Of a stretch of 50,369 nt of DNA, positions 3,303 through 39,657 are shown one piece after another. The notes beneath the pieces were generated by a model. The model ran no database searches. It was not told where the DNA came from and saw nothing but the letters and a program-made list of their open reading frames with translations. How positions within the stretch are numbered: the first letter of the stretch is position 1; each line of letters starts with the position of its first letter. The position numbers were made by a program, and so were the translations under genes. Origin of the DNA: a virus; IMG/VR virus record IMGVR_UViG_3300031669_005085, positions 1 through 50,369 of that record. One strand, written 5' to 3'.

Positions 3303-3431
3303 GCATAACGTTTCGCAGGTATAACCAGTAAAGGATTAAAAACAATAAATTTTAAAATATGAAAAAGTTAATAGAAAAGATTAAGGCTAAATTCAGCAGA
3401 AACCCTTTATTGGTTATACCTGCTGTTAGCG
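3303..3431 (+). other. attC-like site of the duplicated cassette
   Basis: GCATAACGTTTCGCAGGTAT pairs with ATACCTGCTGTTAGCGG, and the inner arms AACCAGTAAAGG/CCTTTATTGGTT continue the stem. The identical arm pair occurs on the opposite strand at 13907-14035. Confidence 0.8.
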
Positions 3432-3602
3432 GTAGTTGTGAACAGCCACAATCTAAAGGAGATTTAGTTCCGCTTATTTGGATGATTGAAGAATTACGAA
3501 GAAGAGAAGGTGGTTGCACAATGAATGAACTTATTGCAGAGGCAAAGCGGAACTTTGAAGGTATTGAACAGATTAAACACCGTACAATCAATTACCGCTA
3601 AC
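3306..3602 (+). repeat. Duplicated cassette unit, copy A (297 bp, inverted copy at 13736-14032)
   Basis: From TAACGTTTCG to the closing CGCTAAC the 297 bases read the same as the reverse complement of 13736-14032, by eye without mismatch. Similarity stops exactly at the TAAC cores: the left flank is GCA here and AAC there, the right flank GCCATAG here and TCGTTTA there. The unit contains an attC-like site followed by a gene, not a gene followed by attC. Confidence 0.9.
3482..3601 (+). CDS. Duplicated cassette protein, 39 aa (80 aa from ATG 3359)
   Basis: A frame is open from ATG 3359, giving 80 residues, but its first 24 codons fall inside the attC-like arms. ATG 3482 is a conservative start that yields a helical Arg/Glu-rich 39-mer (MIEELRRREGG...). 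An AAGGAG lies at 3457-3462. The stop TAA is supplied by the following CGCTAAC core. An identical copy is at 13737-13856. Function unknown. Confidence 0.5.
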   Translation: MIEELRRREGGCTMNELIAEAKRNFEGIEQIKHRTINYR

Positions 3603-3730
3603 GCCATAGCAGCTTTGCGTTCGTGCTGCATTTAAAAAACGAACGCTTCACTTAAAAACAAATTTTGATATGAAAACGAAACTTGACAACACCACTAAAC
3701 CGCAGCATGACGCAAAACTGCCTGTTATAA
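3596..3730 (+). other. attC-like site with long spacer
   Basis: CTAACGCCATAGCAGCTTTG with the arm GCGTTCGTGCTGC can pair with GCAGCATGACGCAAAACTGC followed by CTGTTATAAG. The 3' arm lies inside the coding frame of the next gene. Confidence 0.6.
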
Positions 3731-3876
3731 GCCGTGCTTCTAAGATTAAGAAAGCAAGGGATATAGCTGGTAAAATATTCGTGTTGTATGATGAAAAGGA
3801 CAAGACAGGTGATTGGGAGCTGAACAAGGCCACAGATGCTATTTACGCTTACATAAAGGAATTGGAGCAGTCATAG
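3670..3876 (+). CDS. Cassette hypothetical protein, 68 aa
   Basis: The ATG at 3670 lies in the spacer of the preceding attC-like site, so about 20 N-terminal residues are encoded by its 3' arm. There is no later in-frame ATG. The remaining part (residues 22-68) is a predicted helical domain (ASKIKKARDIAGKIF...AIYAYIKELEQS). Last gene of the left array; no family recognised. Confidence 0.55.
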   Translation: MKTKLDNTTKPQHDAKLPVISRASKIKKARDIAGKIFVLYDEKDKTGDWELNKATDAIYAYIKELEQS

Positions 3877-6095: not shown

Positions 6096-6214
6096 ATTAC
6101 GCATTTGTGTATAAATAGTGTTTTTTATCACAAAATTCGATGATTATATTTGAAATGAATTTTCTATTATATTTCATATTACGCATTTGTGTATAAATAG
6201 TGTTTTTTATCACA
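6051..6214. repeat. Tandem 82-bp direct duplication
   Basis: 6051-6132 and 6133-6214 are the same 82-base sequence by eye. The unit contains the 5' end and leader of the ART-like gene and extends to the 3' end of the IS-disrupted gene. Lack of visible divergence suggests a recent event. Confidence 0.9.
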
Positions 6215-6572
6215 AAAACGGACTATTTATTGTATCCTCCATATCTTCATCAGCAAGTTCTTTTAGTCTATCTGCAATCATATATAAACCTTCGGGTCCA
6301 TATTTATCTAACAGTGCATTAAAATTGATTTCCCTATCCATATCTTCCAATATTTCACGTAACCCATCTTCATTCACGGACTGCTTTAGCATATTTTTAA
6401 TATCTTCCATATCTTGGGGTTTATTTTTGGATTCTATTTCTCCTAAAACTAAATCTGTAATATCTTCATCATAAAGATAGGTGTCAGTACCATCCCAAAT
6501 TGACCACGAATACTTATATCCAAGTAAATCGAAGCATTCTGCTCCATCATAAGTATTTTGACATAAATATAC
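6210..6572 (-). pseudogene. 3' part of IS-disrupted phage gene
   Basis: An open frame without start runs from the transposon edge: VYLCQNTYDGAECFDLLGY..., then a Glu/Asp-rich helical tail. Together with the 31 codons at 8789-8881 it rebuilds an uninterrupted protein of about 151 residues. The (Y/F)LCQN..DGA.C...LGYKYSW signature belongs, as I recall it, to a small beta-rich protein family widespread in Bacteroidota phages, of unknown function. An internal ATG at 6410 could still allow the C-terminal 66 residues to be made. Confidence 0.75.
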
Positions 6573-6585
6573 CGTTCAAAAAAAT

Positions 6586-7848
6586 CTAAGAAAAATTATG
6601 TATCTTAGTTTTTTCTTCTTGTTTCAACCAACCACTACTTTTTAGTACCTCATTACTGAGTTTGTCATCCATAGTTGGGTTGTCCACAAGCGTAAATTCG
6701 GGATAACGTGTCCCTATTTGTTCGTTATATATTCTAACTCCCTCTCTTTCAATATTGATTGCTGCGTTCATATCACGGTCAATAACATTTCCACATTCTT
6801 CACAGACAAATTCTCTATCTTTTAATGTTAAATTGTTATTTTTCCATCCACATTCACAACAAGTTTTTGATGATGGAAACCACCTACTAACAAATATTAA
6901 TTCTCTTCCATACCACTTTGATTTATATTCCAATTGTCGCCTCATTTCGTATAAACCAAGTTCTTGAATAGACTTAGCTAATTTATGGTTTTTCATCATC
7001 CCACTAACATTCAAATCTTCCAATACTATAATTTGATTTTCGTTAATTATATTGATTGTAATGTTATGAAGGAAATCTTGTTTTTGATTTTTAATACTTT
7101 CGTGTAACTTAGCGAGTTTTAATCTTACTTTATTACGATTGTTACTACCTTTTATTTTTTTGGATAGTTGTTTCTGTACCTTTTTTAACTTCTTTTCGTT
7201 AGTTTTAATCCATCTTGGATTATCAATGGTTTTACCGTCAGAAAACGTTAATAGTGTTTTAATACCTAAATCAATACCTACCGATTTATTTGTTGGTTTA
7301 ACTGTTCTTAACAAATCACCATCAATTAATAATGTCGCAAAGTATTTGTTTGATTTTGTCTTAGTAATTGTAACAGATTTAATACCTTGTTTGTTTTTAT
7401 ATAGATATTGTTTATCTCTGTCAGAACATTCAAATTTTAATCCTTTAATTGTTTTAGTTAGATTCAGTCTTGAAGTTTCTTCATCAAATGTTTTAGATGC
7501 AACAGCTTCTTGTGGAAATCTAACTTTTTGTTCATCGTGCTTAGATTTAAACTTAGGGAAACCTTTATGTTGTTTAAAGAAATTCTTGTAAGCTACTTCT
7601 AAGTTGATTATGGACTGTTTCAGAACTTTAGTGTTATGTTCTCTCAACCAATCATATTCAGTCCTTAAATCACCGTGGAAATAATGACCTAAATCAGATA
7701 AGGAAGTGTTTTTCTTATCTGCTTCGTAATTAAGTTTTTTGTAAGCAAGACATTGATTATAGACAAAACGATAAGACCCAAGCAAACTATTGATATTGTT
7801 TGTCTGTTCATTGTTTAAATATAGTCTTACTTTTATCGATTTTAACAT
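6586..7848 (-). CDS. tnpB: TnpB RNA-guided nuclease of IS607-like element
   Basis: 420 aa. N-terminal wedge/REC part, then a split RuvC domain: GIDLGIK (Asp193), IIVLEDLN (Glu277), zinc ribbon CCEC...CEEC (Cys330, 333, 349, 352) and DRDMNAA (Asp359). All catalytic residues are present. TnpB proteins use an RNA from the element's own right end to cut DNA beside a short motif, which helps the element persist. The start directly abuts the tnpA stop. The guide would begin at the junction with the host gene (6573 downward). Confidence 0.93.
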   Translation of the reverse strand: MLKSIKVRLYLNNEQTNNINSLLGSYRFVYNQCLAYKKLNYEADKKNTSLSDLGHYFHGDLRTEYDWLREHNTKVLKQSIINLEVAYKNFFKQHKGFPKFKSKHDEQKVRFPQEAVASKTFDEETSRLNLTKTIKGLKFECSDRDKQYLYKNKQGIKSVTITKTKSNKYFATLLIDGDLLRTVKPTNKSVGIDLGIKTLLTFSDGKTIDNPRWIKTNEKKLKKVQKQLSKKIKGSNNRNKVRLKLAKLHESIKNQKQDFLHNITINIINENQIIVLEDLNVSGMMKNHKLAKSIQELGLYEMRRQLEYKSKWYGRELIFVSRWFPSSKTCCECGWKNNNLTLKDREFVCEECGNVIDRDMNAAINIEREGVRIYNEQIGTRYPEFTLVDNPTMDDKLSNEVLKSSGWLKQEEKTKIHNFS

Positions 7849-8499
7849 TTAATTATTGGTTACTTTTTCGTTATTTTTATCTTCTTTTTTCTTTCTTCTA
7901 CGTTCAGCACTTCGTTTTCCATAAACCTTTCCACTAAAACTCGCCATTAATGAAATAATATCAGTAACCAAATCTTCTTGTTCACCAACATCATTATTTT
8001 CAATATGTATTATTTCAACACCATAACTTTTAAACATTTTTTCAATAAAGTTATATTGAAATCTTGTTAATCTATCCTTGTGCTCAATAATGATTTTACT
8101 TACCTTCTTTTCAATAACTAAGTTAGTTAACCTAATAAAACCATTTCTCGTATCAGATAAACCTGAACCCACATCTTTAATTATAAAACCAACATTTAGT
8201 TTTTTCTTGGCACAGTATTCACTCAAACGTTGTGATTGTCTATCCAAATCACCTTTTTGTTTTTGTTCGTGTGAACTTACACGAGAGTATGTTACAACTA
8301 AATCAGACGTTTCTACAATACTTCTACCAATTCCAATATATTCGTCCAACAGTTCTTGTTGATAACGTCTATGACCACCTGTTGTGGTCAACGGAACTAA
8401 TTTATTAGATTTATTCCATTTTCGTAAAGTATCGGCACTTACATTAAGATATTCTGCTGCCTGTTTTGTTGTTAATAACTTACTCATTCTTACTTTCAA
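7849..8499 (-). CDS. tnpA: IS607-family serine recombinase TnpA
   Basis: 216 aa. Residues 7-46 form a MerR-like winged helix (TKQAAEYLNVSADTLRKW...TGGHRRY) that binds the transposon ends. Residues 67-200 are a small serine-recombinase catalytic domain with YSRVSS (Ser75 the likely nucleophile), GDLDRQ, DVGSG and EHKDRLTR. The Lys-rich tail follows. Its start overlaps the accessory gene by 20 bases. 23-30% G+C by eye, matching its neighbours, so long resident or from a similar genome. Confidence 0.93.
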   Translation of the reverse strand: MKVRMSKLLTTKQAAEYLNVSADTLRKWNKSNKLVPLTTTGGHRRYQQELLDEYIGIGRSIVETSDLVVTYSRVSSHEQKQKGDLDRQSQRLSEYCAKKKLNVGFIIKDVGSGLSDTRNGFIRLTNLVIEKKVSKIIIEHKDRLTRFQYNFIEKMFKSYGVEIIHIENNDVGEQEDLVTDIISLMASFSGKVYGKRSAERRRKKKEDKNNEKVTNN

Positions 8500-18830: not shown

Positions 18831-19481
18831 TTACATATTTATTTCAAAAATAGTCAAATCATATTTTAATTTAGAGTAATCGGTAATATTGTCATTAGAA
18901 TCTTTAACAATTGATGTACTTCCATATTCATCATAAGTATATTCACACGAATAACCCCTAGAATCCTTATATGTTAACTTATTTCCATTTTCATCATAGG
19001 TATACACTTCAGTATAACCACTTGAATCCTTAACAGTTAATAAATTTCCTTTTTCATCATAGGTATATTCATATGAATAACCCCTAGAATCCTTATATGT
19101 TAACTTATTTCCATTTTCATCATAGGTATACACTTCAGTATAACCATTAGAATTCTTAGTAGTTAATAAATTTCCTTTTTCATCATAGGTATATTCTTCA
19201 GAATAACCAGTTGAATCCTTAGCAGTTAACTTATTTCCATTATCATAAGTCATTTCTGACCAATAACCATCAGAACCTTTATAGGTTAACTTTCTAACAG
19301 GCAGTTTACCTTTTAACTTATTAACTAACCAACCAATATCATTAAATAATGATACATCACCAACTGTAATTTCAGTTGATTTTTCAATATTAACTGAATG
19401 TAGTTCAGGTGTATTGCTAAACTTAGCGATTGCTTCATCACAAGCCTTAATTGCCAGAAGATAATCTGTTGTAATTTTCAT
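18831..19481 (-). CDS. YD-repeat (Rhs-like) protein, short form, 216 aa
   Basis: A 65-residue N-terminal domain (MKITTDYLLAIKACDEAIAKF...) is followed by six repeats of 20-21 residues with the pattern T.KDS.GY..EYTYDE.GN.L, then an unusual end KYDLTIFEI. These are YD/Rhs-type repeats, which in other proteins build a beta-cage. No toxin or transport domain is attached. Paralogous to 20464-21870, with the same N- and C-terminal caps. No signal peptide. Confidence 0.85.
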   Translation of the reverse strand: MKITTDYLLAIKACDEAIAKFSNTPELHSVNIEKSTEITVGDVSLFNDIGWLVNKLKGKLPVRKLTYKGSDGYWSEMTYDNGNKLTAKDSTGYSEEYTYDEKGNLLTTKNSNGYTEVYTYDENGNKLTYKDSRGYSYEYTYDEKGNLLTVKDSSGYTEVYTYDENGNKLTYKDSRGYSCEYTYDEYGSTSIVKDSNDNITDYSKLKYDLTIFEINM

Positions 19482-19540: not shown

Positions 19541-20101
19541 TTATTTATCCAAATATAATAGGCAGCATTGTTTATATTTTTTACCTGAACCGCAAGGACA
19601 CATATCATTTCTTTGGGGATTTTTCATAGTTGGCAATTTATAATCACGGTCTACAACTGTTTCTGCAACACCATTAAGATGATTGATTTCATGCTGCCAA
19701 ATTTGTGCAGCAAAACCTTTAATTGTTTCGACATGTGCATTTCCATCAATATCCTGATAACTAACATCGATTGCACGACTTCTTTGCGCAACAATTAGTT
19801 TACCATTCCAAGTAAGACAACCTTCAAGATGTAATTCTACCATTCCGATGTTGTTGAGAACGTTAGGATTAACAATTAGTCTCCAACCATTATTTTTCAT
19901 ATCACGCAATGCAAATAGATTATGCATAAATCTATTATTATCAAGACTACACTGATTGGCTGCAAGACCAACTGCATTATTATGCTTTGAAGCAAACTCA
20001 AGAAATGAATTATATGTTTCTTTATTGGCGATTAATTCTTCTGGTAATACCAAATTATGAATACATGGTGTTTGTTCGTTAGGTATAATTTTAAAATTCA
20101 T
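19541..20101 (-). CDS. def: Peptide deformylase with C-terminal SEC-C motif
   Basis: 186 aa. Contains the three deformylase motifs: GLAANQ (45-50), EGCLTW (93-98, Cys95) and HEINH (137-141), which bind the metal and remove the formyl group from nascent proteins. Residues 168-180 are a SEC-C zinc motif (CPCGSGKKYKQCC), normally found at the end of SecA and other proteins that contact ribosome or SecB. Phage deformylases are known; the SEC-C fusion is the unusual part. Confidence 0.92.
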   Translation of the reverse strand: MNFKIIPNEQTPCIHNLVLPEELIANKETYNSFLEFASKHNNAVGLAANQCSLDNNRFMHNLFALRDMKNNGWRLIVNPNVLNNIGMVELHLEGCLTWNGKLIVAQRSRAIDVSYQDIDGNAHVETIKGFAAQIWQHEINHLNGVAETVVDRDYKLPTMKNPQRNDMCPCGSGKKYKQCCLLYLDK

Positions 20102-20127
20102 ATTTTTTGTTTTAGTTTAAAAAAAGT

Positions 20128-20420
20128 CACTTAATAACAGGTTTATATAGATAAAAACAATGATAATGTCACAGACAATGACCTTCTCTTGCGCAAAGTA
20201 AAATACAAAGGCAATGTCGTTTTTTCGAATTAATTATCTTCAACCTATGTTGAAGTAACTTAACCCAAATCAAGGTTGTTTTATCAAAACACCTTAAAAA
20301 ACTTGAGTTTGCAAGAGAAGCGATGTTTTCTGTCACACACTATTCGCATCACGTATGATGCAAATAGTTTGCAATATCGTAAGTTTTTATATTATATTTA
20401 AAAGAACCTGTTATTAAGTG
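20128..20420. ncRNA. Candidate structured RNA, about 293 nt
   Basis: The ends CACTTAATAACAGGTT and AACCTGTTATTAAGTG form a perfect 16-bp closing helix 293 nt apart. Inside are ATAGATAAAAAC/GTTTTTATATTAT, TTCTCTTGC/GCAAGAGAA, hairpin CTTCAACctatGTTGAAG, and GCATCAcgtaTGATGC. There is no coding frame. It fills the gap between deformylase and the long YD-repeat gene. The TAAC/GTTA cores at the ends also allow a giant attC-like site as an alternative. Strand of transcription unknown. Confidence 0.55.
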
Positions 20421-20421
20421 T

Positions 20422-20462
20422 AAAAAGAAATTGATTATGCTTATGCTTTGTCAATTTCTTAC
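20422..20462. terminator. Hairpin at the 3' end of the YD-repeat gene
   Basis: AAGAAATTGA/TCAATTTCTT, 10 bp with a 16-nt loop; T-rich end on the - strand side (TTTTTAC). It probably ends the 20464-21870 transcript or caps the structured RNA. Confidence 0.55.
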
Positions 20463-20463
20463 C

Positions 20464-21870
20464 TTATTTTATTTCAAAAATGGTTAAATCGTATTTTAAT
20501 TTAGAGTAATCGGTAATATTACCATCAGAGTTCTTATAAGTTAATAAATTTCCTCTTTCATCATAGGTATACTCTTCAGTCCTACCACCTGAATTCTTAG
20601 CAGTTAACTTATTTCCTCTTTCATCATAGGTATACTCAACAGAATAACCATTTGAATTCTTATAAGTTAACTCATTCCCTCTTTCATCATAGGTATATTC
20701 TTCTGAATAACCTGTTGAATTCTTATAAGTTAACTCATTCCCTTTTTCATCATAGGTATACTCTTTAGTATAACCATTAGAATCCTTAACAGTTTGTATA
20801 TTTCCTCTTTCATCATAGGTATACTCTTCAGTTTTACCTTTTGAATTCTTAAAAGTTAATACCTTTCCTTTTTCATCATAGGTTCTCTCTTCAGCATTAC
20901 CATCTGAATTCTTATATGTTAACTTATTTCCTCTTTCATCATAGGTATACTCTTCTGAATAACCTTTTGAATCCTTATAAGTTAATGCATTTCCTTTTTC
21001 ATCATAGGTATGCTCATACCAATAACCATCTGAATTCTTATATGTTAACTTATTTCCTCTTTCATCATAGGTATACTCTTCTGAATAACCTTTTGAATCC
21101 TTATAAGTTAATGCATTTCCTTTTTCATCATAGGTATGCTCATACCAATAACCATCAGAATTCTTATAAGTTAACCTATTTCCTTTTTCATCATAGGTTC
21201 TCTCTTCAGCATTACCATCAGAATTCTTATAAGTTAACTTATTTCCTTTTTCATCATAGGTATACTCTTCAGTATTACCATTTGAATTCTTATAAGTTAA
21301 TGCATTTCCTCTTTCATCATAGGTATACTCTTCTGAATAACCTTTTGAATCCTTATAAGTTAACTTATTCCCTCTTTCATCATAGGTATACTCATATGTA
21401 TAACCACTTGAATTCTTAAAAGTTAACATATTTCCTCTTTCATCATAGGTATACTCATACGAATAACCATCAGAATTCTTGAAAGTTAATACCTTTCCTC
21501 TTTCATCATAGGTATACTCAACAGTATTACCATTTGAATCCTTAAATGTTAACATATTTCCATTTTCATCATAGGTATACTCATATGTATAACCACTTGA
21601 ATTCTTAAAAGTTAACATATTTCCTCTTTCATCATAGGTTCTCTCTTCAGTATAACCTTTAGAATCTTTATAAGTTAACTTATTAACAGGTAATTTACCT
21701 TTTAATTTATTAACTAACCAATTAATATGATTAAATAGTGATTCATCACCAGTAATAATTTCAATTGGTTTTTCAATATCAACAGAATGAAGTTCAGGTG
21801 TATTATTAAACTTAGCGATAGCTACATCACAAGCCTTAATTGCCAGAAGATAATCAGTTGTTATTTTCAT
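20464..21870 (-). CDS. YD-repeat (Rhs-like) protein, long form, 468 aa
   Basis: The same 65-residue N-terminal cap as 18831-19481, then eighteen consecutive 21-residue repeats (consensus TYKNSDGYSEEYTYDERGNKL with variation at positions 4-12), then the cap KYDLTIFEIK. Repeats differ little and several are identical, e.g. the alternating GYWYEH and GYSEEY pairs, which points to recent expansion by slippage or recombination. No toxin, protease or signal peptide. Presumably an elongated solenoid or shell; role unknown. Confidence 0.88.
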   Translation of the reverse strand: MKITTDYLLAIKACDVAIAKFNNTPELHSVDIEKPIEIITGDESLFNHINWLVNKLKGKLPVNKLTYKDSKGYTEERTYDERGNMLTFKNSSGYTYEYTYDENGNMLTFKDSNGNTVEYTYDERGKVLTFKNSDGYSYEYTYDERGNMLTFKNSSGYTYEYTYDERGNKLTYKDSKGYSEEYTYDERGNALTYKNSNGNTEEYTYDEKGNKLTYKNSDGNAEERTYDEKGNRLTYKNSDGYWYEHTYDEKGNALTYKDSKGYSEEYTYDERGNKLTYKNSDGYWYEHTYDEKGNALTYKDSKGYSEEYTYDERGNKLTYKNSDGNAEERTYDEKGKVLTFKNSKGKTEEYTYDERGNIQTVKDSNGYTKEYTYDEKGNELTYKNSTGYSEEYTYDERGNELTYKNSNGYSVEYTYDERGNKLTAKNSGGRTEEYTYDERGNLLTYKNSDGNITDYSKLKYDLTIFEIK

Positions 21871-21941: not shown

Positions 21942-22883
21942 TTATTCTTGTGCTTGAAGTTGGTTTAAGAAAATATTTATTACTTCTTGAAATCTTGAAT
22001 CGATTTCAATTCTCATGCTTGCAATTTCCTTAATCTTTGCTTGACGAATTTTTTCAAATTCTGCTTTTGCCGTATTAATTGATTCATTTATTTTCTTAAT
22101 TTCAGTTTCATAAGCAATCTGCATATTATTATTTTCTTTTTCTGCAATAATCTGTGCATCAGCATTCTGTTTTGCAATTTCGGCATTACGTTCAGTGACA
22201 AGATTTTTTACCTTTGCTTTAAAGTAGTTTACTTTCTGTTCATGAACACGATGAATGGCAGCAAGTTCTTCATGAATTCCCAATAATTCCTCAGACGTGT
22301 GATGCACAGTTATAATAACAGGTGATTTAGTACCATCGCCCTTAACTACTTGCCATTCAATGGCAGGGATACTATTAATTTCATTACGAAGTCCAGCAAG
22401 AATTGATTTTTCATGAATAAATTGACCAATATGTGAAGCATATGCTTCTGCTTCCAAATATTCATTGAATTCATTAGCACTTAATTGCTCCCAACCATAA
22501 TCCTCAGTTACTTCAGGCAAACGTTTAGGCACAATAAATGCTGGTGTTTTGGGCATAGTAGATTTCAATTCATCAGGAATTTGATATGCCTCATTTTTGG
22601 TTATATTCAACATCCTTTCCTTCGCCTTCATATTTTCCATTAAAAATGCTTGACAAGCATGTAGTTTTGCTTTTTCATTAAGCAAATCAACAATGTTTGT
22701 AGGAATTTTGATACCTCTAACTGTTTCATACGAAATTCCATCAACAGTTATGAATTTACTGTAATTATTAACAGCAATTAATTGTTTAGCGATTTCGCTT
22801 GCTCTTTGATTACAAAGATTTGAAATTGATTGTGCCTGTGAAAGGCTTAGACCCTTATTTGGTGTCAATGAATTCTTTTTCAT
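21942..22883 (-). CDS. Hypothetical coiled-coil phage protein, 313 aa
   Basis: The N-terminal domain (residues 10-110) is helical with 'LSLSQAQSISNLCNQRASEIAKQL'. A central region (115-215) has mixed structure, and residues 215-305 form a long coiled coil (KAKVKNLVTERNAEIAKQNADAQ...). Nothing catalytic is visible. Relatives that I know of in Bacteroidota phages are annotated as hypothetical. Probably a structural or scaffolding-type cytosolic protein. Confidence 0.72.
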   Translation of the reverse strand: MKKNSLTPNKGLSLSQAQSISNLCNQRASEIAKQLIAVNNYSKFITVDGISYETVRGIKIPTNIVDLLNEKAKLHACQAFLMENMKAKERMLNITKNEAYQIPDELKSTMPKTPAFIVPKRLPEVTEDYGWEQLSANEFNEYLEAEAYASHIGQFIHEKSILAGLRNEINSIPAIEWQVVKGDGTKSPVIITVHHTSEELLGIHEELAAIHRVHEQKVNYFKAKVKNLVTERNAEIAKQNADAQIIAEKENNNMQIAYETEIKKINESINTAKAEFEKIRQAKIKEIASMRIEIDSRFQEVINIFLNQLQAQE

Positions 22884-23730: not shown

Positions 23731-24867
23731 TTAAAATAAATCTGCACAAACTTGCACATCCTTTATTTCCTTGTAACGAGCACCGTATTGTCCCGTGAGA
23801 AATCGATTCAAAATATTCTTACCTGCATTTATATCTGCATTGTCTTTGTGACCACAACTGAGACACAAGAACACTTCTCCTAATCGATTTCCCCTATCAG
23901 AATGACCACATGCTGGACAGGTAGTACTGGTATAATAAGGTGCTACGCTGCGAAAACTAACACGGTTAATTTCGCATTGTGCTTCTAACCTTTTCAACCA
24001 ATACTTCCAATTCCAAGTTCCGATAGAACGCCTGATACTTTTAGCCAACAGGCGTTTGGCTTTACTCTTAAATCCCATCTTCTTTAGTTGCTCCACAACA
24101 ATCAAATCTGGGTTTTCTTTTACTAATATTTCTTTTGCTGTTTCATCAATCCTTTGTTTCAATGCTCTCTTAGCAACATAATAACCTTTAGACTTCTGCT
24201 TACATCTTTTAATTCTCTCAATACAACCTTTGATGTCCTTACCGTATTGATTGCCGTTGTTTAATGATGCAAGAGCATTGATGCCTGTGTCAATACCAAT
24301 ACACTTCAGACCTTCTTTCTTAGGTTGTGTTATAATCTCAAAACTGAACTGAACATAGTTCTTAGTAATGATATACGAATTCAACCTCTTACCGAGATTA
24401 TTGTATTTGTTGAAATGCTTATGGTATTTAATAGGTAAGTCCATTATCATCTTATTACCAACTGAGGCTATGTGTAACCAAGCATCAAATAACCTGCTGT
24501 CTTCGGTTTTATAACCATTGTTTTTAGTTGATACTAAGTCAGCAATGGTACAACTAACATACATTCTATTACCTTTGTGAACTGGCTTAACTGCTTTCTC
24601 TTTCCACCTTTGCTTCGAAGCATTAATCATATCGATGGCTTCTCTTGCTGCAACCTTGCGTAATCGTGCCGATAACCAACTTTCTTGCGGTAAATCTACA
24701 ATAGGTTTAAGGAGTTCTCCTTTTGTTGCTTTCTCAGGATTCAACCAGAAATAGTCAATGAAGATATTAACCACCTTTGAGTATTCACTCAAGATAGTTA
24801 ATAAATCATTTCGCTTCTTTGTTGTTGCGAATTTCAAACTACATTTGGTTGAACGGATTAGTTTCAT
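23731..24867 (-). CDS. tnpB: TnpB-type RNA-guided nuclease, second copy
   Basis: From ATG 24867, 378 aa; a longer frame reaching 25047 only overlaps the upstream gene. RuvC residues: GIDTGI (Asp193), LIVVEQLK (Glu259), zinc ribbon CPAC...CLSC (Cys317, 320, 335, 338) and NADINAGKN (Asp345). All active-site residues are intact. It is distantly related to the TnpB at 6586. No TnpA of the tyrosine (Y1) type is nearby. It is either a stand-alone insertion or the last gene of a five-gene unit starting at 28520. G+C is visibly higher than its neighbours. Confidence 0.9.
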   Translation of the reverse strand: MKLIRSTKCSLKFATTKKRNDLLTILSEYSKVVNIFIDYFWLNPEKATKGELLKPIVDLPQESWLSARLRKVAAREAIDMINASKQRWKEKAVKPVHKGNRMYVSCTIADLVSTKNNGYKTEDSRLFDAWLHIASVGNKMIMDLPIKYHKHFNKYNNLGKRLNSYIITKNYVQFSFEIITQPKKEGLKCIGIDTGINALASLNNGNQYGKDIKGCIERIKRCKQKSKGYYVAKRALKQRIDETAKEILVKENPDLIVVEQLKKMGFKSKAKRLLAKSIRRSIGTWNWKYWLKRLEAQCEINRVSFRSVAPYYTSTTCPACGHSDRGNRLGEVFLCLSCGHKDNADINAGKNILNRFLTGQYGARYKEIKDVQVCADLF

Positions 24868-24886
24868 TATTGTTAGTGATTTCTTA

Positions 24887-25330
24887 TTAAAATCCCGAAA
24901 ATTTAGAAATTTTTGAGGTGTCGATAAGAATTTTCTCAAACGATTCCTGTGACCAAAATTTTGGATGCATATAACCATGTACTGTACTATTCCTATTATC
25001 ACCCTCATCAAATCTTGACGAACTTTTAAAGTATTTTTTGATTTCATTTAAACACTTTAAATATTCTTCATTATCTTGATTTTCACTAATTGCTAAATTA
25101 ATTAATTTTATTCCTACTCTTTTTCTTTCACCATCTAATTGACAGCCATATTCCGATGTTGTACTTCTAATTATTTCTTCTAATAGTGAATATATAAATG
25201 GAGTTAGAATGGAATATGAATTAGGAAATTGTTTATAAATCTTTTTTGTTAATTCAATATCAGGACACCAATTCCAAAAATGGGAGTGTTCATAAATAGT
25301 ATTAAATGCTTCTTCCAATTCTTTTTTCAT
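24887..25330 (-). CDS. HEPN-like protein, possible RNase, 147 aa
   Basis: All-helical protein. Near the end RNSTVHGY gives the HEPN motif RxxxxH (Arg113, His118) with Asn after the Arg, the hallmark of HEPN ribonucleases in defence and toxin systems. The context (RNSTVHGYMHPKFWSQESFEKI) is typical of standalone HEPN proteins. It lies between a helicase gene (29-base gap) and tnpB (19-base gap). It is extremely AT-rich, unlike either neighbour. Confidence 0.65.
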   Translation of the reverse strand: MKKELEEAFNTIYEHSHFWNWCPDIELTKKIYKQFPNSYSILTPFIYSLLEEIIRSTTSEYGCQLDGERKRVGIKLINLAISENQDNEEYLKCLNEIKKYFKSSSRFDEGDNRNSTVHGYMHPKFWSQESFEKILIDTSKISKFSGF

Positions 25331-25359
25331 AAAAACTTTTTATTATTTAATCTAATAAT

Positions 25360-27675
25360 TTATTTCATGTGTTGAACACATTCATCAAACCACCCATTTC
25401 TTTTTGCTGCTGCATAGGCACTATGAGCATTTTTTAACCAATCAGCAGTTGTTTCGTATTTTAATGAGCAATCAAAGCATAACTCTTTTGTCCATATAAA
25501 TTTTCTTTTCATATGTGTTGTGGCATCTTTAAACCAACCATTTCTATACGCAGCATTAAACGATGCTCCATCATTTTTTTGCCATTGAGAAGATGTATTG
25601 TATTTTAATGCACATTCAAAAACCTTTTCTTTTGTCCAATAGCCATCAGGATTTGATTTTAATGGTTTTGTCATGTGTGAAGTACATTCATCCAACCAAT
25701 TATTTTGACGAGCAATATCATACGCCCAATTTTCATTCTTTTTCCAATCATTTCTTTTATCATATCTTAATGCGCTTTCAAAAACTCTTTCTTTTGTCCA
25801 ATATCCATTTGGTTTGTGTTGCGGTTTTTCATCCATATGTGAAGTACATTCATCCAACCAATTATTTTTTCTGGCAATATTATATGCTCCGCCATCATAT
25901 TTCGCCCATTCACTTCTTTTATTAAATTTTAACGCACTTTCAAAAACCTTTTCTTTTGTCCAAGAATTCATTATTGTTTCCATATGAGCATAACATTCAT
26001 CTAACCACCCATTAATATATGATGCGCCATATGCACCACGTTCATTATCCTGAAATTCTTTTCTTGTTTGATAATTTTGAGCGGTTTCAATACATTTTTC
26101 TTTCGTCCATTTTCCTTTAGTAATTATCATATGTTTGGTACATTCTTCAATCCATCCATTTTTCTTTGCAACATTATACGCTCCCATATTACTTACAATC
26201 CAACGCCCAATTTTATTATATTGTAGTGCATTTTCAATACACTTTTCTTTTGTCCAATAACCATTTGGCATTTGTTTCATAAATTCGGCTCTTACATCCC
26301 TTATTGTTGTGTATGTATATATATGGAGTAGAGCATCCTTTTTATGATAAAGGTCTTTAAAAAACTCAAACACATGTAGACCTTCAAAATCAATTGGTTT
26401 TAATGTCTTCGGTCTTGGTTTACTTCCACCATTATTATTTGGCTCGTGATGCTCCCTTTTGGTTTTTATAACGGGAATAATCATATCTGAAAAATTCTTA
26501 CCATTGAATTTAGTGAAGAAGGTTTCATCTGCAAGTGAAAGTACTGCGGTCATTATGTATTTGTAGTAATCGCTATGGATGTTCGGGGCAACCTTAAAGA
26601 ACAATTTTTTGTGACCTTCAGGATGCTTGCGGATGACACGACATAATAATTGGTATATCCTGTCAACATTTTGTGATGTAGTCATATCCACGACATTCAC
26701 AAGTTCAGGGTAGTTAAAGCCAAGTATACCACGACCTACAACAATAAGAATAAGACAGTCTGATTCGTTTTTAAATCTCTCAATCTCTTTACTATCGTAG
26801 TCAATATCAGATATACTGAGAGCCGATGTCACACCAATTTTATCGAAATACGATTTAACCTGCATCGCTTGATGTTGACTACGGCAAGCAATCATAGTCT
26901 TCTGTAATTTCTTCAAGGTCGGTAGCCATTCAGGAAGTAAATTCTGATATGGGTTATCTTTTATGCTCTTGAGTCTATCAACAATCTTACTTATAAGGTC
27001 ATCAAGAGTTTTTTTAGTTTCAGATTCTTTTATATAAACACCTGTTTTAAGTTCGTCATCCCTATTAAAATCCGTCATCGGGTCAATGGTATATGAAGAT
27101 GTTGCTATTTCAACAAACAAGTCAGAAATCATACCTTCATCGAAAATTGTGTTGAGTGTAATGGGAATGATTTTAAAACCTTTTCTAATGAACGGTGATG
27201 GCGTACCAGTTAATAACAGTTGTTTCTTCGGTTTGGCTTGTTTGATGATTTCCTTCATCATCTTCTCAGCGAAGTAAAATTGATGTGCTTCATCGACTAT
27301 GAGAAGGTCAATTTTATCGAGAACATTTCCTGCGAGAGTCTGAGGAAGACAGATATTAACATCTGCGGTGACATCATACTGAGTGAATTTCTCAACAAGG
27401 TTGTAAGTGAAATTTGGTTTAGTTTCTTTAAGAACATCATGAAATTGTGTACGGAGAATTGTTGTACCGTGAGCCAGCACCATTATCTTACTATTGGGAT
27501 TCTGATGAAGCCACTCTTCCATCATGTAAATTGTCATCAGAGTTTTCCCTGCTGACGGACAAGCAGCGAGGACTGTTATCTCACGCTGTTCAAGACTTTC
27601 TTGTACTTTAGTAATTGCGGTATCTTGGTATGTTAATACTCTCAGATTTCTACTTTCAAACCACTGGTTGTTCAT
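25360..27675 (-). CDS. Superfamily 2 helicase with six C-terminal W-T-K-E repeats
   Basis: 771 aa. Helicase core about residues 10-400: LRVLTYQ (Q-like motif), CPSAGKT (Walker A, 39-45), VDEAH (127-131), TGTPSP, and QLLCRVIRKH (motif VI). This resembles phage UvsW/D10-type DNA-RNA remodelling helicases. From about residue 485 come six 45-residue repeats, (G/N)xWTKE(K/R)...A..Y..R..W......AY..A..NGWL(D/E)ECT.HM. Such repeats occur at the ends of phage helicases and homing endonucleases and probably bind nucleic acid. Start overlaps the tnpA stop by 20 bases (translational coupling). Confidence 0.88.
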   Translation of the reverse strand: MNNQWFESRNLRVLTYQDTAITKVQESLEQREITVLAACPSAGKTLMTIYMMEEWLHQNPNSKIMVLAHGTTILRTQFHDVLKETKPNFTYNLVEKFTQYDVTADVNICLPQTLAGNVLDKIDLLIVDEAHQFYFAEKMMKEIIKQAKPKKQLLLTGTPSPFIRKGFKIIPITLNTIFDEGMISDLFVEIATSSYTIDPMTDFNRDDELKTGVYIKESETKKTLDDLISKIVDRLKSIKDNPYQNLLPEWLPTLKKLQKTMIACRSQHQAMQVKSYFDKIGVTSALSISDIDYDSKEIERFKNESDCLILIVVGRGILGFNYPELVNVVDMTTSQNVDRIYQLLCRVIRKHPEGHKKLFFKVAPNIHSDYYKYIMTAVLSLADETFFTKFNGKNFSDMIIPVIKTKREHHEPNNNGGSKPRPKTLKPIDFEGLHVFEFFKDLYHKKDALLHIYTYTTIRDVRAEFMKQMPNGYWTKEKCIENALQYNKIGRWIVSNMGAYNVAKKNGWIEECTKHMIITKGKWTKEKCIETAQNYQTRKEFQDNERGAYGASYINGWLDECYAHMETIMNSWTKEKVFESALKFNKRSEWAKYDGGAYNIARKNNWLDECTSHMDEKPQHKPNGYWTKERVFESALRYDKRNDWKKNENWAYDIARQNNWLDECTSHMTKPLKSNPDGYWTKEKVFECALKYNTSSQWQKNDGASFNAAYRNGWFKDATTHMKRKFIWTKELCFDCSLKYETTADWLKNAHSAYAAAKRNGWFDECVQHMK

Positions 27676-28324
27676 CTTTTTCTTTTAATTGTTGTAATTT
27701 CAATTTTTCTTCTTTCAGTTCCTTTTTACGCTTCACACTACGCTTCCCGTAAAGTTTTCCAGAGAAGGAAGCCATTAACATCATAATATCGTTCACAAAT
27801 TCTTCCTCATTGGATATATTGTTGTTATCCACACATTCCAGTTCAACATCATAACTGTTAAAGAAAGTCTTTATCAGGTTATATTGAAATCTGGTAAGAC
27901 GGTCTTTGTTTTCGATTACAATTTTACTAATTTTTTTCTTAATAACCAAATCCACGAGTTTAACAAATCCAGTTCGGGTGTCCGAAAGTCCAGACCCGAC
28001 ATCTTTAATGATGTGTTCCACGCTATATTTTTTCTTCGCACAATATTCAGAAATCCTCTGTGATTGTCTGTCCAAATCTCCTTTAGTTTTCTGTTCATGT
28101 GAACTGACACGACTGTATGTGGCGACGCCTGTTATTACTACTTCAACATTGTGTTCACCCATATAGTTGTTAATGTCTTCTTCACGGTATTTACGGTGTC
28201 CACCAACGGTTTTAACAGATATGAGTTTACCTTCGTTATCCCATATCCTTAATGTTTTCTTGGTGACACCAAGAGTCAGAGATACTTGTTGTATGGATAA
28301 TAACTTATTCATTTGACTGTTCAA
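27656..28324 (-). CDS. tnpA: IS607-family serine recombinase TnpA, second copy
   Basis: 222 aa. MerR-like HTH (LLSIQQVSLTLGVTKKTLRIWDNEG...GGHRKYREE), catalytic domain with YSRVSS, GDLDRQ, KDVGSG and ENKDRLTR, and Lys-rich tail. All active-site features are present. Related to but distinct from the copy at 7849 and clearly richer in G+C, so a separate arrival. In place of tnpB, its downstream overlapping partner is a helicase. Confidence 0.92.
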   Translation of the reverse strand: MNSQMNKLLSIQQVSLTLGVTKKTLRIWDNEGKLISVKTVGGHRKYREEDINNYMGEHNVEVVITGVATYSRVSSHEQKTKGDLDRQSQRISEYCAKKKYSVEHIIKDVGSGLSDTRTGFVKLVDLVIKKKISKIVIENKDRLTRFQYNLIKTFFNSYDVELECVDNNNISNEEEFVNDIMMLMASFSGKLYGKRSVKRKKELKEEKLKLQQLKEKDEQPVV

Positions 28325-30517: not shown

Positions 30518-30778
30518 TTAACAATCCATTCCATGTTTTTCTTTTACAATTTCATTGAAAATATCAATTGTTTCCTGTGGTGCTGGTAATATCATAATTC
30601 TGTCAGCAATGTCAACCAATCCAAAATCAGAGTTGGTCTTTATTTCTTTTTCGTATTCGATAAACTCTTCTCTGGTAGGTGCTTCCCATAGTCCAATGAA
30701 GTGCACAACCGCCATATTATCTTCTTCGTCCAACTCTAAGGTGTCTACTGCAATAATTCCAAAAGTAAATTTTTCCAT
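30518..30778 (-). CDS. Hypothetical acidic protein, 86 aa
   Basis: MEKFTFGIIAVDTLELDEEDNMAVVHFIGLWEAPTREEFIEYEKEIKT...: beta strands then helix, acidic. The start overlaps the stop of the helicase gene by one base, so it is the next gene in the same operon. No family known. Confidence 0.65.
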   Translation of the reverse strand: MEKFTFGIIAVDTLELDEEDNMAVVHFIGLWEAPTREEFIEYEKEIKTNSDFGLVDIADRIMILPAPQETIDIFNEIVKEKHGMDC

Positions 30779-33330
30779 TATTTATCAATTTTTGTTGTTA
30801 ATATGTGTGCTGTTAAACTAGGTCGAGTTAATGCTACATATAAAATTTGATTTCTTTCCTTAGCAAGCCAATTTTCGTAAATATCATTTTCCAGTACAAA
30901 TACATGTGAATATGTACTACCTTGAGATTTATGTGCAGTGATTGCATACCCATAATCCAAATCTTTTACAATAACATCTGCTGAACTTCTATATAAACCA
31001 TTTTTATATTTATCAATAGTCTTCATCAGTAAATTATTGCGCCTGAATTCATAATATTTATTCCATGCCTTTTTATTGGCTTTACCCATATCACGAAAAA
31101 AATCATGCATTTGTGCATATAGATGTAGATTTTCATAATCATTGGTGTCAATAACAAATACATCCTGAAATTTAAATTGACCTTTTGCTAAATCCTCTCT
31201 TAACTTAACGTTATATCCTAAAATACCATACTGATTTTCTTCTTTAGCTGTCTTATCTACAACACGATAATCTGCACTATTTTCTATTATATTATATCTT
31301 TGATTTTCTGCACTAACGCTTCTATATCCCATAAGTATATCACCAACTTCGATAATATCAACATTGCCAGAAAATAACTCATCTCTAATCACCCTATTTG
31401 ACTTCATAATTGTATCATTTTTCCATCCAATTACCTTAGCAAAATCAGTGTCTTTCTTAAATTCCTCAGAACTATACTTATCTAATATTGCTTTTCGAAA
31501 CATCCGCTTATTGATAGTGAAATTAGCACCTTCACCCAAATCGTTCATTACTGTACGTCTGATAATACCACCATCTAATTTAGATAAGTTATTTCTTAGT
31601 GCATCGTAAATAAATGCAAGTGGATTGGTATCATTTTGTCTTTCAACTTTAGTTAGTTGATGAAATTCACCAATTTCAGTATGTTGATTAAACACTGCAC
31701 TTATTTTTTCACCTACAGGTGGAATTTGTGCTGGGTCACCCATAAATAGTACTTTAGTTTTACTCTCACGTGTTTTGTCAACAATTAGGTTATATAATTC
31801 CTGATTCACCATACTGGCTTCATCAATAATAACAAAGTTATAATCGGTAATTCTAGGAATTGCAATAGGATTAAATTTGGGGTCATTCGGATTAAAATTA
31901 TCCAAATCAACATCAGGTCTTAGTCCAAGTAATGAATGTAATGTTTGACCATTTTTATTTGTTGTATTCATTACAACTTTCTTAGCCTTATGTGTTGGTG
32001 CAGATACAACTACACCAAAACGATAGGAATCTAATATTTTTTTTATTATCGTGGTATTATGCGTAACAGTGAAATTATCAGTGAGATATAAATTATCCTC
32101 CGCTTCTACCTCAATACATTGCTGTTCAACATCACTAATATATTTGATTTCAGTTATATATCTCGGTGTTTTATATTTTGTCTTATTATGAACTAGATTT
32201 TGTTTTCTACTTAGTGAAAATATATTAAAATCATTTGTCTGATTAATACTAATAATATAGCAACCTTGATAATTATTTGATTTATGGTTAATTTTTGCTA
32301 CACATCCTAATGATTGTACCAATTCACACATATCGTTAGCAAGTTTAAATGAAGTTGTAGCATATGAAATATAACATCCACGTTTATCAACAGTTCCATC
32401 AGTATCCATCAATCCCTGTAATAAACTAACCCTATCATCAATCGAAGAATATTTGTATATATCAGGAATAAATTTTTTTTCTGATTTAACTGTAAGATTT
32501 AACTTACGTAAATTCTCAAGTAGTTCATTTTTTTTACCTTTAACGCCTGAAATTGAATATCCAATAGTATTTGATATTTGTTTCAAAGTTAAATCACAAT
32601 ATGTTGAACCAACGATATTATATATTCTATTAACAATTTCATTATCTGCTGTAGTAAATTTTACACTACCTTGAGTTAATCCACCATCACCAATCAATAC
32701 ACCTAATAAATATGGGTCAATTGGTAAACATTTCTTTTTAAAATTAACTGGAGAATTTACCTGTATTTTATAGTTTAACTGAATACTTTCATTGTTTCGA
32801 ATATGATATATATTATCAATCATATCTTTAGTCGATAAAATTGAATAGTATTCTTTTTGTTTATTAAACTTATGTATAAAACTTCTTTGACAATTTCTAT
32901 CGTTAAATGTTTTTATTTTCCATAAATGGTCTTCACAACAATCCACATGAAAACCATCAGAAAATGTTACTCTATACATTGGTTTAATTCCTTGTGGAAA
33001 CACATTTATTACTTTTGTTGGTTCACCATTACTACCAATTACAAAATCACCAATCTTTACATCACCCATAGTAATATAACCATCTGGAGTATATAATTTA
33101 GAATAAAGTGGTTGTGCTTTTCCAGTACCTGCATATCCAGCTAACGTAAAAAATGTATGATTTCCTTTTGCACTAAGCCAATCATTAATCTTTTTCAAGC
33201 CCTCAAACTGTTCATCATTAAACGTAATTAACTTACCATTTGGAAGCAATAACTGGTTATCAATTGTTTCAATTTTAGGTAATTTATGTTCGTATAATGA
33301 TTTAATTATATCATCATCAAATTCAATCAT
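30778..33330 (-). CDS. Dda-like superfamily 1 helicase containing an intein
   Basis: 850 aa including a 354-residue intein. The host protein: FNDEQFEGLKKINDWL, FTLAGYAGTGK (Walker A, 63-71), interrupted, then TTIIKKIL, SAPTHKAKK (motif Ia), IIDEASM (II), GDPAQIPPV (III), and AITAHKSQGST (V). Dda/RecD-type 5'-3' helicases start replication and displace proteins. About 496 residues without the intein, close to T4 Dda (439) plus a longer end. Overlaps the Nudix gene by 4 bases. Confidence 0.92.
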   Translation of the reverse strand: MIEFDDDIIKSLYEHKLPKIETIDNQLLLPNGKLITFNDEQFEGLKKINDWLSAKGNHTFFTLAGYAGTGKAQPLYSKLYTPDGYITMGDVKIGDFVIGSNGEPTKVINVFPQGIKPMYRVTFSDGFHVDCCEDHLWKIKTFNDRNCQRSFIHKFNKQKEYYSILSTKDMIDNIYHIRNNESIQLNYKIQVNSPVNFKKKCLPIDPYLLGVLIGDGGLTQGSVKFTTADNEIVNRIYNIVGSTYCDLTLKQISNTIGYSISGVKGKKNELLENLRKLNLTVKSEKKFIPDIYKYSSIDDRVSLLQGLMDTDGTVDKRGCYISYATTSFKLANDMCELVQSLGCVAKINHKSNNYQGCYIISINQTNDFNIFSLSRKQNLVHNKTKYKTPRYITEIKYISDVEQQCIEVEAEDNLYLTDNFTVTHNTTIIKKILDSYRFGVVVSAPTHKAKKVVMNTTNKNGQTLHSLLGLRPDVDLDNFNPNDPKFNPIAIPRITDYNFVIIDEASMVNQELYNLIVDKTRESKTKVLFMGDPAQIPPVGEKISAVFNQHTEIGEFHQLTKVERQNDTNPLAFIYDALRNNLSKLDGGIIRRTVMNDLGEGANFTINKRMFRKAILDKYSSEEFKKDTDFAKVIGWKNDTIMKSNRVIRDELFSGNVDIIEVGDILMGYRSVSAENQRYNIIENSADYRVVDKTAKEENQYGILGYNVKLREDLAKGQFKFQDVFVIDTNDYENLHLYAQMHDFFRDMGKANKKAWNKYYEFRRNNLLMKTIDKYKNGLYRSSADVIVKDLDYGYAITAHKSQGSTYSHVFVLENDIYENWLAKERNQILYVALTRPSLTAHILTTKIDK
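32056..33117 (-). other. Intein with LAGLIDADG endonuclease in the helicase P-loop
   Basis: Residues 72-425 of the helicase. It begins AQPLYSKLYTPDGYITMGDV (Ala in place of the usual Cys/Ser at position 1) and ends YLTDNFTVTHN before Thr. LAGLIDADG-type segments LLGVLIGDGG and LLQGLMDTDG show a homing endonuclease. Insertion between GTGK and T of Walker A blocks the helicase until splicing. Other Ala1-type 'AQPL' inteins are known to splice by direct attack on the downstream residue. Confidence 0.9.
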
Positions 33331-38629: not shown

Positions 38630-38646
38630 ATAGCAGGAATCTTTTT
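38608..38646 (-). terminator. Rho-independent terminator of the Thg1-like gene
   Basis: AAGATTCCTGC/GCAGGAATCTT with loop TATTGTAACAA, followed by T-runs on both sides. It ends the transcript of the 38645 gene and contains part of the next promoter. Confidence 0.8.
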
Positions 38647-39457
38647 ATAGATTTTTTGGGATATATTTTAATAAAAATTCCCTATCTTTTGTAAATGTTG
38701 GTGGTTCAATAACTGTCCATACATGCCTCGTATAGATATGTTGTATCTTATCCTCAGCAACAAATGGTGTATTTAATTGAACTTCTTGCCTACAAATAAC
38801 TCTACCTCTTTTATATTTGGGCGCAAAATCATTCCAATTAATTCCCTTTTGAAATATCATTTCTTGCTGCACATTCATATTCTTACCTTCAAGTTCTTTG
38901 TGACTATAAAGACTTTGTGCAACGCTTGAAATACTGTTTCTTACCGTATCTTGCTGCCTAAAGATGAAGTAATTTTCAACTTCATAGCCACTAGGAATTG
39001 TGAATACACGTGCATCAAATTCTGCTAGATTTTGATTTAATATTTTATTATATGCTGTTTCACCATGCGCATCAACATCAATACCATTAAATGTTCTCAA
39101 CATTCTTAATTGATTAAATTTAGCAGTTGCCATTGAAGCAGCAACACTAGTAATTTTCTGAATATTACCATCAAACCAAGCATCAGTACCAATCTTATCA
39201 AAATCTGTTAGTAGTATACTAATTTCATCTGACTGCACAAATGCAAACTTTGCACCCTGTATCTTTCTACAAAGATAAGATGCTGTTTCATTCATATCGT
39301 TCATAAAATCATCGTCAAATGGTTTATTTAAACCACTTGTATATGTGTGAAATGCTTTGCCATCAATACGAATGATAGTATATGTTCTACGAGGAAGAGT
39401 TATACGAGTTCTATTCTCATAATAGTTCTTCATTCTGTCTCCAAGTTCGTCTTTCAT
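38645..39457 (-). CDS. Thg1-like 3'-5' nucleotidyltransferase
   Basis: 270 aa from ATG 39457 (the frame is open to 39499). RIDGKAFHTYT (metal-binding Asp32) and VQSDEISILL (Asp77-Glu78) are the hallmark Thg1/TLP motifs. Thg1 family proteins add nucleotides in the 3'-5' direction; bacterial and phage members (TLPs) repair 5'-truncated tRNAs. Located next to an RNA ligase, so tRNA repair is the likely pathway. It overlaps the small 39454 gene by 4 bases. Confidence 0.9.
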   Translation of the reverse strand: MKDELGDRMKNYYENRTRITLPRRTYTIIRIDGKAFHTYTSGLNKPFDDDFMNDMNETASYLCRKIQGAKFAFVQSDEISILLTDFDKIGTDAWFDGNIQKITSVAASMATAKFNQLRMLRTFNGIDVDAHGETAYNKILNQNLAEFDARVFTIPSGYEVENYFIFRQQDTVRNSISSVAQSLYSHKELEGKNMNVQQEMIFQKGINWNDFAPKYKRGRVICRQEVQLNTPFVAEDKIQHIYTRHVWTVIEPPTFTKDREFLLKYIPKNL

Positions 39458-39657
39458 GATTGTAATTTTAAATGTAACGTTTTTGTTTTTCTTTCCCATG
39501 AAATAATTTCAATGTCATCCAAATCAATACTTTTAATATCAATCTCAGGATTATTCTTTTTATCTTTTAACGTTTTATTATTAAGATAAACCAAATTGCA
39601 TTTTGTTATAAACTTTAGTAATTCAGTTTTAGAATTTTGTTTTTTATTTTTTCTCAT
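39454..39657 (-). CDS. Basic hypothetical protein, 67 aa
   Basis: MRKNKKQNSKTELLKFITKCNLVYLNNKTLKDKKNNPEIDIKSIDLDDIEIISWERKTKTLHLKL: basic head, acidic middle, beta end. It sits between RNA ligase (2-base gap) and the Thg1-like gene (overlap), so it may serve the same RNA-repair job, by context only. Confidence 0.65.
   Translation of the reverse strand: MRKNKKQNSKTELLKFITKCNLVYLNNKTLKDKKNNPEIDIKSIDLDDIEIISWERKTKTLHLKLQS

Follow-up and report, generated by a model that had tools for sequence, protein, structure and literature searches.

Precedents exist for large phage RNAs of unassigned function. GOLLD and ROOL are large structured RNAs of phages and prophages that are often found near tRNA islands; the linkers of GOLLD sometimes hold tRNAs, and ROOL has no known protein partner (PMC12286853). 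Among cellular RNAs, the OLE RNA of Bacillota (~600 nt) is likewise large and structured, and its gene is co-localised with that of a single partner, the membrane protein OapA; it was through this gene co-localisation that the link was first spotted (PMC12054373). The bacterial Y RNA YrlA (90-150 nt) pairs with Ro/Rsr. In YrlA a tRNA-like domain is carried on the stem that joins the 5' and 3' ends (PMC8394870).

The RNA described here, of 300-400 letters, strongly conserved and previously undescribed, was found in a 50,369-nt virus record of IMG/VR (IMGVR_UViG_3300031669_005085), the whole of which is referred to as the window, and in relatives of this virus. It resembles OLE in that the gene of a large structured RNA lies with that of one protein, but it is shorter, is encoded by phages and is partnered by an orphan protein. 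With GOLLD and ROOL it shares the phage setting, the unassigned function and, in several members, a tRNA-island context, but it is smaller, has no sequence or model match to either and is strictly tied to one protein gene. In common with YrlA it has a helix joining its ends and, in two members (L109 and L110), a tRNA-like domain of D, T and acceptor arms, whereas most members lack a tRNA arm.

By all membership tests run, the RNA belongs to no described RNA class. The first-pass annotation, made from the letters alone, had proposed a structured non-coding RNA for which it could name no class, and indeed Rfam 15 gives nothing for the window at the gathering threshold or at E<=1; its hits in the relatives are limited to tRNA, tmRNA and a hatchet ribozyme, all outside the RNA. 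The GOLLD and ROOL covariance models have no match in the window or in relatives. The OLE model has none in the window, and by Pfam the neighbouring protein is no OapA homologue, its members sharing no family. Assignment to the Y RNAs was rejected, no Ro/Rsr (TROVE) gene being found in any of 10 large phage records (the search covered phage records only). The RNA does fall within a familiar broad kind, that of phage-encoded, structured, covarying non-coding RNAs without a conserved ORF. No description of it was found in the open literature, a search that took in little of the subscription literature or of bioRxiv.

Genomic setting

The RNA occupies a gap of 362 nt (20102-20463) that contains no gene, as had been claimed in the first-pass annotation. 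The gap is flanked by an ORF with RHS repeats (20464-21870, minus strand) and, downstream of the RNA, by a gene for a peptide deformylase with a C-terminal SEC-C zinc motif (19541-20101, minus strand). The element was originally placed at 20128-20420, where it does lie, but this extent proved too narrow: the covariance-model match spans 20122-20467 on the minus strand (E 5e-68), and conservation extends to a covarying hairpin, H0 (20425-20460), that falls outside the earlier limits. The element occurs once in the record, as it does in each phage. Just 3' of the closing helix, a terminator-like run, ACUUUUUUU (20119-20127, minus strand), is a feature of the sub-clade of the window and is not universal.

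Several other features of the window were recorded. The deformylase-SEC-C fusion is common to many huge-phage contigs. On either side of it are RHS-repeat paralogues with 21-aa repeats and the same N-terminus (18831-19481 and 20464-21870). Two modules are IS607-like by sequence, each with a MerR-type serine recombinase and a TnpB-like protein (6586-8499 and 23731-28324); in the second, these two components are separated by other genes, including one for a large helicase. A Dda-like helicase (30778-33330) matches several unrelated PHROG families over residues ~50-435, a segment that is probably an intein. A tRNA-His guanylyltransferase is encoded at 38645-39499 (phrog_4717, E 6e-81), yet the window has no tRNA gene.

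Fold and covariation

The perfect 16-bp inverted repeat reported in the first-pass annotation is present (20128-20143 with 20405-20420). In dinucleotide shuffles of the gap the longest inverted repeat averaged 9.1 and reached at most 12, and the folding energy of the gap is 9.0 SD (plus strand) and 9.9 SD (minus strand) lower than that of shuffles, none of 200 being as stable.

In the minus-strand sense, the RNA begins with H0, an 11-bp stem (97.5% paired, with changes to both partners in 10 of the 11 pairs) whose loop, GCAYAAGC, holds a conserved mini-stem, GC-AUAA-GC (20439-20446). The closing helix P1 (5' strand 20405-20420, 3' strand 20128-20143) encloses P2 (5' strand 20312-20320, 3' strand 20183-20191), which is 98-99.7% paired with changes on both sides at 9 of 9 pairs. 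Further hairpins comprise one in the variable arm (20339-20368), P3 (20272-20295), which most other members replace by a CUGAGAUAGAACUC hairpin, and an inner hairpin (20230-20263) with a conserved internal loop, AAGUUAC / GAUAAUU. The internal helices that had been proposed are real, P2 and P3 both showing covariation.

Compensating changes in the closing helix, on which the first-pass annotation had staked its reading, are kept in homologues: both-side changes were seen in all P1 pairs, 15 of 15 counted in a set of 18 window-like sequences and 16 of 16 in a set of 68. Over the 46 pairs of H0, its mini-stem, P1, P2 and P3, the smaller set is 97.1% paired, with both-side changes at 41 of the pairs; its covariation score was reached by none of 500 shuffles, and slid controls pair at ~40-50%. 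In the set of 68, standard pairs fill 96.7% of the paired cells, both sides have changed at 44 of the 48 pairs of the model structure, and the covariation score is 0.823 against 0.293 in shuffles; because these sequences were aligned to the model, the result is biased towards it, whereas the 18-sequence alignment was made with plain MAFFT. A search for the P1 pattern with the exact bases of the window returned no matches, as expected of a helix that covaries. The existence of a structured RNA is very secure.

The minus strand is the sense of this RNA, a point absent from the first-pass annotation. Read in that sense, G-U and A-C pairs stand at 74:4. The other strand would turn each G-U into an A-C mismatch, and therefore the selected molecule is the minus-strand RNA.

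Hexamer arrays

Two arrays of a UUUGNN-type hexamer lie in the 3' half of the molecule. Array 1, GACAUUGCCUUUGUAUUUUACUUUGC (20193-20218, minus strand), comes just before the 3' strand of P2, and array 2 (20151-20182, minus strand) comes after it and opens with GGUC. In 50 members, G follows GGUC at positions 8, 14, 20 and 26, each preceded by UUU, and the array gives way to a conserved CUAUA (20146-20150, minus strand, in the window). Autocorrelation at lag 6 far exceeds that of shuffles (z=15 for T, 22 for G), and a few mis-anchored segments in the set (L037, L046) can only have weakened this signal. Between the two arrays, the spacing from G to G was measured in 41 members and is 24 or 25 nt in all but one of them. 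Both arrays are mostly unpaired in the consensus, although the minimum-energy fold of the window pairs part of array 2.

In a few members the arrays resemble an open frame when read by eye. At lag 3 the autocorrelation lies below that of shuffles, and codon periodicity is therefore excluded. A conserved ORF was rejected on the further grounds that the array frame lacks a start and is not maintained across P2', where it shifts; sense ORFs of at least 40 aa occur in only 8 of 50 members.

Evenly spaced short repeats are also found in the leader RNA bound by TRAP, a ring protein that reads (G/U)AG repeats at about 5 nt. In the present RNA the repeat is UUUGNN at 6 nt, and its binding by a protein is putative.

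Linkage to an orphan protein gene

With the deformylase as query, a first scan of viral contigs yielded 25 loci, two of which (L018 and L010) matched the gap by blastn with 62-64% identity over ~370 nt. In both, ~1.5 kb separates the RNA from the deformylase, and the gene immediately upstream of the RNA encodes a 312-aa protein. The relative of this protein in the window, of 313 aa, is encoded at 21942-22883 (minus strand), and only the RHS-repeat ORF of 20464-21870 separates its gene from the RNA. This ORF, the larger of the RHS paralogues, is inserted at this point in the window and is missing from it in relatives.

A scan with the partner protein gave 80 viral loci and one contig of a metagenome-assembled genome (MAG), and the same RNA was found in the gene-free gap past the stop codon at nearly all of them; a second scan, from distant members, gave 206 protein relatives. 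Overall, homologues come from more than 100 viral contigs of up to 373 kb and the one MAG. A covariance model (R1) placed the RNA directly downstream of the protein gene in 80 of 81 and 79 of 80 loci (E 1e-86 to 1e-14; 1e-38 to 1e-65 for members outside model building). The exception is the same contig in both sets, and it ends at the stop codon. Conversely, a degenerate DNA pattern based on the arrays, and independent of the protein, matched 93 viral contigs, of which 91 have the partner gene directly upstream on the same strand; the other two are truncated by contig or locus ends, L118 at the end of its contig, and the protein of the L188 contig was found separately. When eight deformylase-bearing or MAG records were searched with both queries, three held protein and RNA and five held neither.

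The deformylase gene, in contrast, is only a neighbour, without a general link to the RNA: phages that share the deformylase and lack the partner protein also lack the RNA. A riboswitch of the deformylase gene was rejected, since in relatives the RNA is followed by other genes and most deformylase loci have no adjoining RNA. Since the next downstream gene differs widely among members, the pairing of protein and RNA, as judged from gene order, goes beyond what ordinary synteny would give. The members all come from a single loose lineage of phages, however, and the fixed gene order could therefore be partly inherited.

The spacing between partner gene and RNA varies in some members. L062 has a 95-aa ORF in between, and L097, L099, L207 and L225 have ~125-160 nt, with structured-looking inserts of 125-155 nt at 3607-3760 (L097), 3419-3555 (L207) and 3419-3545 (L225). 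Rfam has no match to the insert in L099 (which shares that of L097), L207 or L225.

By the tests run, the partner protein lies outside described protein families and solved folds. Forty members, down to 41% identity to the window copy, have many invariant residues in common; they share no Pfam family, and Pfam and PHROGs give only weak, scattered matches. AlphaFold2 predicts a structure with pLDDT 88 and pTM 0.80, for which Foldseek has no match in the PDB at E<=0.001, and hence no known RNA-binding protein was identified; in BFVD its single match is a homologue encoded by an uncultured Caudovirales phage. The protein is mildly acidic (pI 5.6-6.3) and not basic overall. A number of its Lys, Arg and His positions are conserved, and K86, K88, K222, K224, K226, R280, R291 and R297 are so in at least 90% of members.

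Variable arm

The length and content of the variable arm differ freely among members, and L111 has lost both P3 and the inner hairpin in an arm deletion. In L109 and L110 the arm consists of a T-arm, a capped acceptor stem of 5-7 bp and a D-arm, with an anticodon stem as its base (L109:5008-5080 and L110:5036-5110). ARAGORN calls a tRNA in both once the halves are restored to normal order (the input had reordered halves, a neutral loop and an added ACCA tail). The arm is thus a circularly permuted tRNA fold, with no free CCA end possible as it stands. Of the members read, only these two have such a domain.

Carrier phages

Neither DNA nor protein searches revealed known phage relatives, and the partner protein was not found in 50,697 deposited phage records. 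In a group of huge phages without any representative in these records, the RNA appears to be near-universal. The terminases are 26-39% identical to those of Flavobacterium phage immuto, Prevotella Lak phages and uncultured huge phages, a likeness from which the carriers are judged to be, probably, T4-like huge phages; their hosts are perhaps Bacteroidota. Among 287 genomes of the phylum of the MAG, the partner protein occurs only in that MAG, and its contig is therefore taken to be a phage that is either resident or mis-binned.

tRNA islands surround several members (19 ARAGORN calls in 9 kb for L048, 18 for L054), and most members, the window among them, have no neighbouring tRNA. In L110 a phage-encoded tmRNA (6127-6500, tag VETSNVSFGGNVDSLLAEIFGEVAMAA) is found close to the RNA, and in the related phage L099 a hatchet ribozyme (Rfam RF02678, 77.7 bits; 1407-1544) lies ~3.5 kb upstream of it.

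Possible functions

The leading reading, to which we would give an even chance, is that of a new class of phage non-coding RNA, ~300-400 nt in length, that works in trans by scaffolding a ribonucleoprotein of which the orphan protein is the other part. It has a precedent in OLE and OapA, which were likewise brought together by the co-localisation of their genes (PMC12054373). The RNA would be transcribed in the minus-strand sense, downstream of the orphan protein gene, and would form a separate transcript with which the protein assembles, its fold being held by P1, P2 and H0. The unpaired UUUGNN arrays would offer evenly spaced sites for repeated protein subunits, which might oligomerise on them, and the variable arm might be a swappable add-on, even a tRNA mimic. 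Such a particle may have a role in host takeover or in translation. The acidic pI of the protein, the want of any solved structure like it and the partly inherited gene order that a single lineage could produce speak against this reading. A more specific version, which we put forward only tentatively, is that the one RNA per genome serves as a ruler, with protein bound at sites spaced by 6 nt and an exchangeable effector arm that in some members is a permuted tRNA mimic.

It is possible, if rather unlikely, that the RNA works without the neighbouring protein, as a particle like GOLLD or ROOL, a decoy for tRNA nucleases or a tether like Y RNA, its position being simply inherited. The tRNA islands around several members recall GOLLD and ROOL (PMC12286853), and the permuted tRNA arm of two members recalls the tRNA-like domain of YrlA (PMC8394870). 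Against this, the pairing persists to ~41% protein identity while the next downstream gene differs widely, no Ro/TROVE gene occurs in the 10 large records, and most members stand apart from tRNA genes.

Less probable still is a cis-acting 3' element of the partner mRNA, with a function in stability, processing or autoregulation. The RNA does usually begin within ~30 nt of the partner stop codon, on the same strand. In the window, however, the 1.4-kb RHS-repeat ORF intervenes, as do the ORF of L062 and the ~125-160 nt of L097, L099, L207 and L225, and a multi-branched fold of 300-400 nt with arrays is excessive for a 3' UTR.

An element acting as folded single-stranded DNA, such as an attC-like site, the ends of a transposon (MITE) or a replication origin, is very improbable and, as far as sequence can show, is rejected. 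The first-pass annotation had left open a giant attC-like site on the strength of TAAC/GTTA at the ends; there is indeed a terminal inverted repeat and, by eye, a possible 6-bp AAAAAG repeat on both flanks. These flanks are, however, low-complexity A-runs, and the ends, where attC sites have conserved R/L core boxes, are not conserved. The excess of G-U over A-C pairs on one strand points to RNA and not to folded DNA, and there is one copy in the record, fixed beside one gene. The least credible candidate is a retron or other RNA linked to a reverse transcriptase, for which the long complementarity of the ends would suit a1/a2-type closing ends, but no RVT_1 gene is present in the window record or in 10 relatives, some >320 kb, and a telomerase-like RNA was rejected with it.

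The presence of this RNA beside one uncharacterised protein gene suggests a viral RNA-protein machine. Only a small number of large structured RNAs still have no assigned function, and the want of a partner has made every one of them difficult to solve. The present RNA has a genetically fixed protein partner, a distinctive periodic sequence and natural variants with an arm deletion (L111) or a permuted tRNA in the arm (L109 and L110), and its function is thus directly testable.
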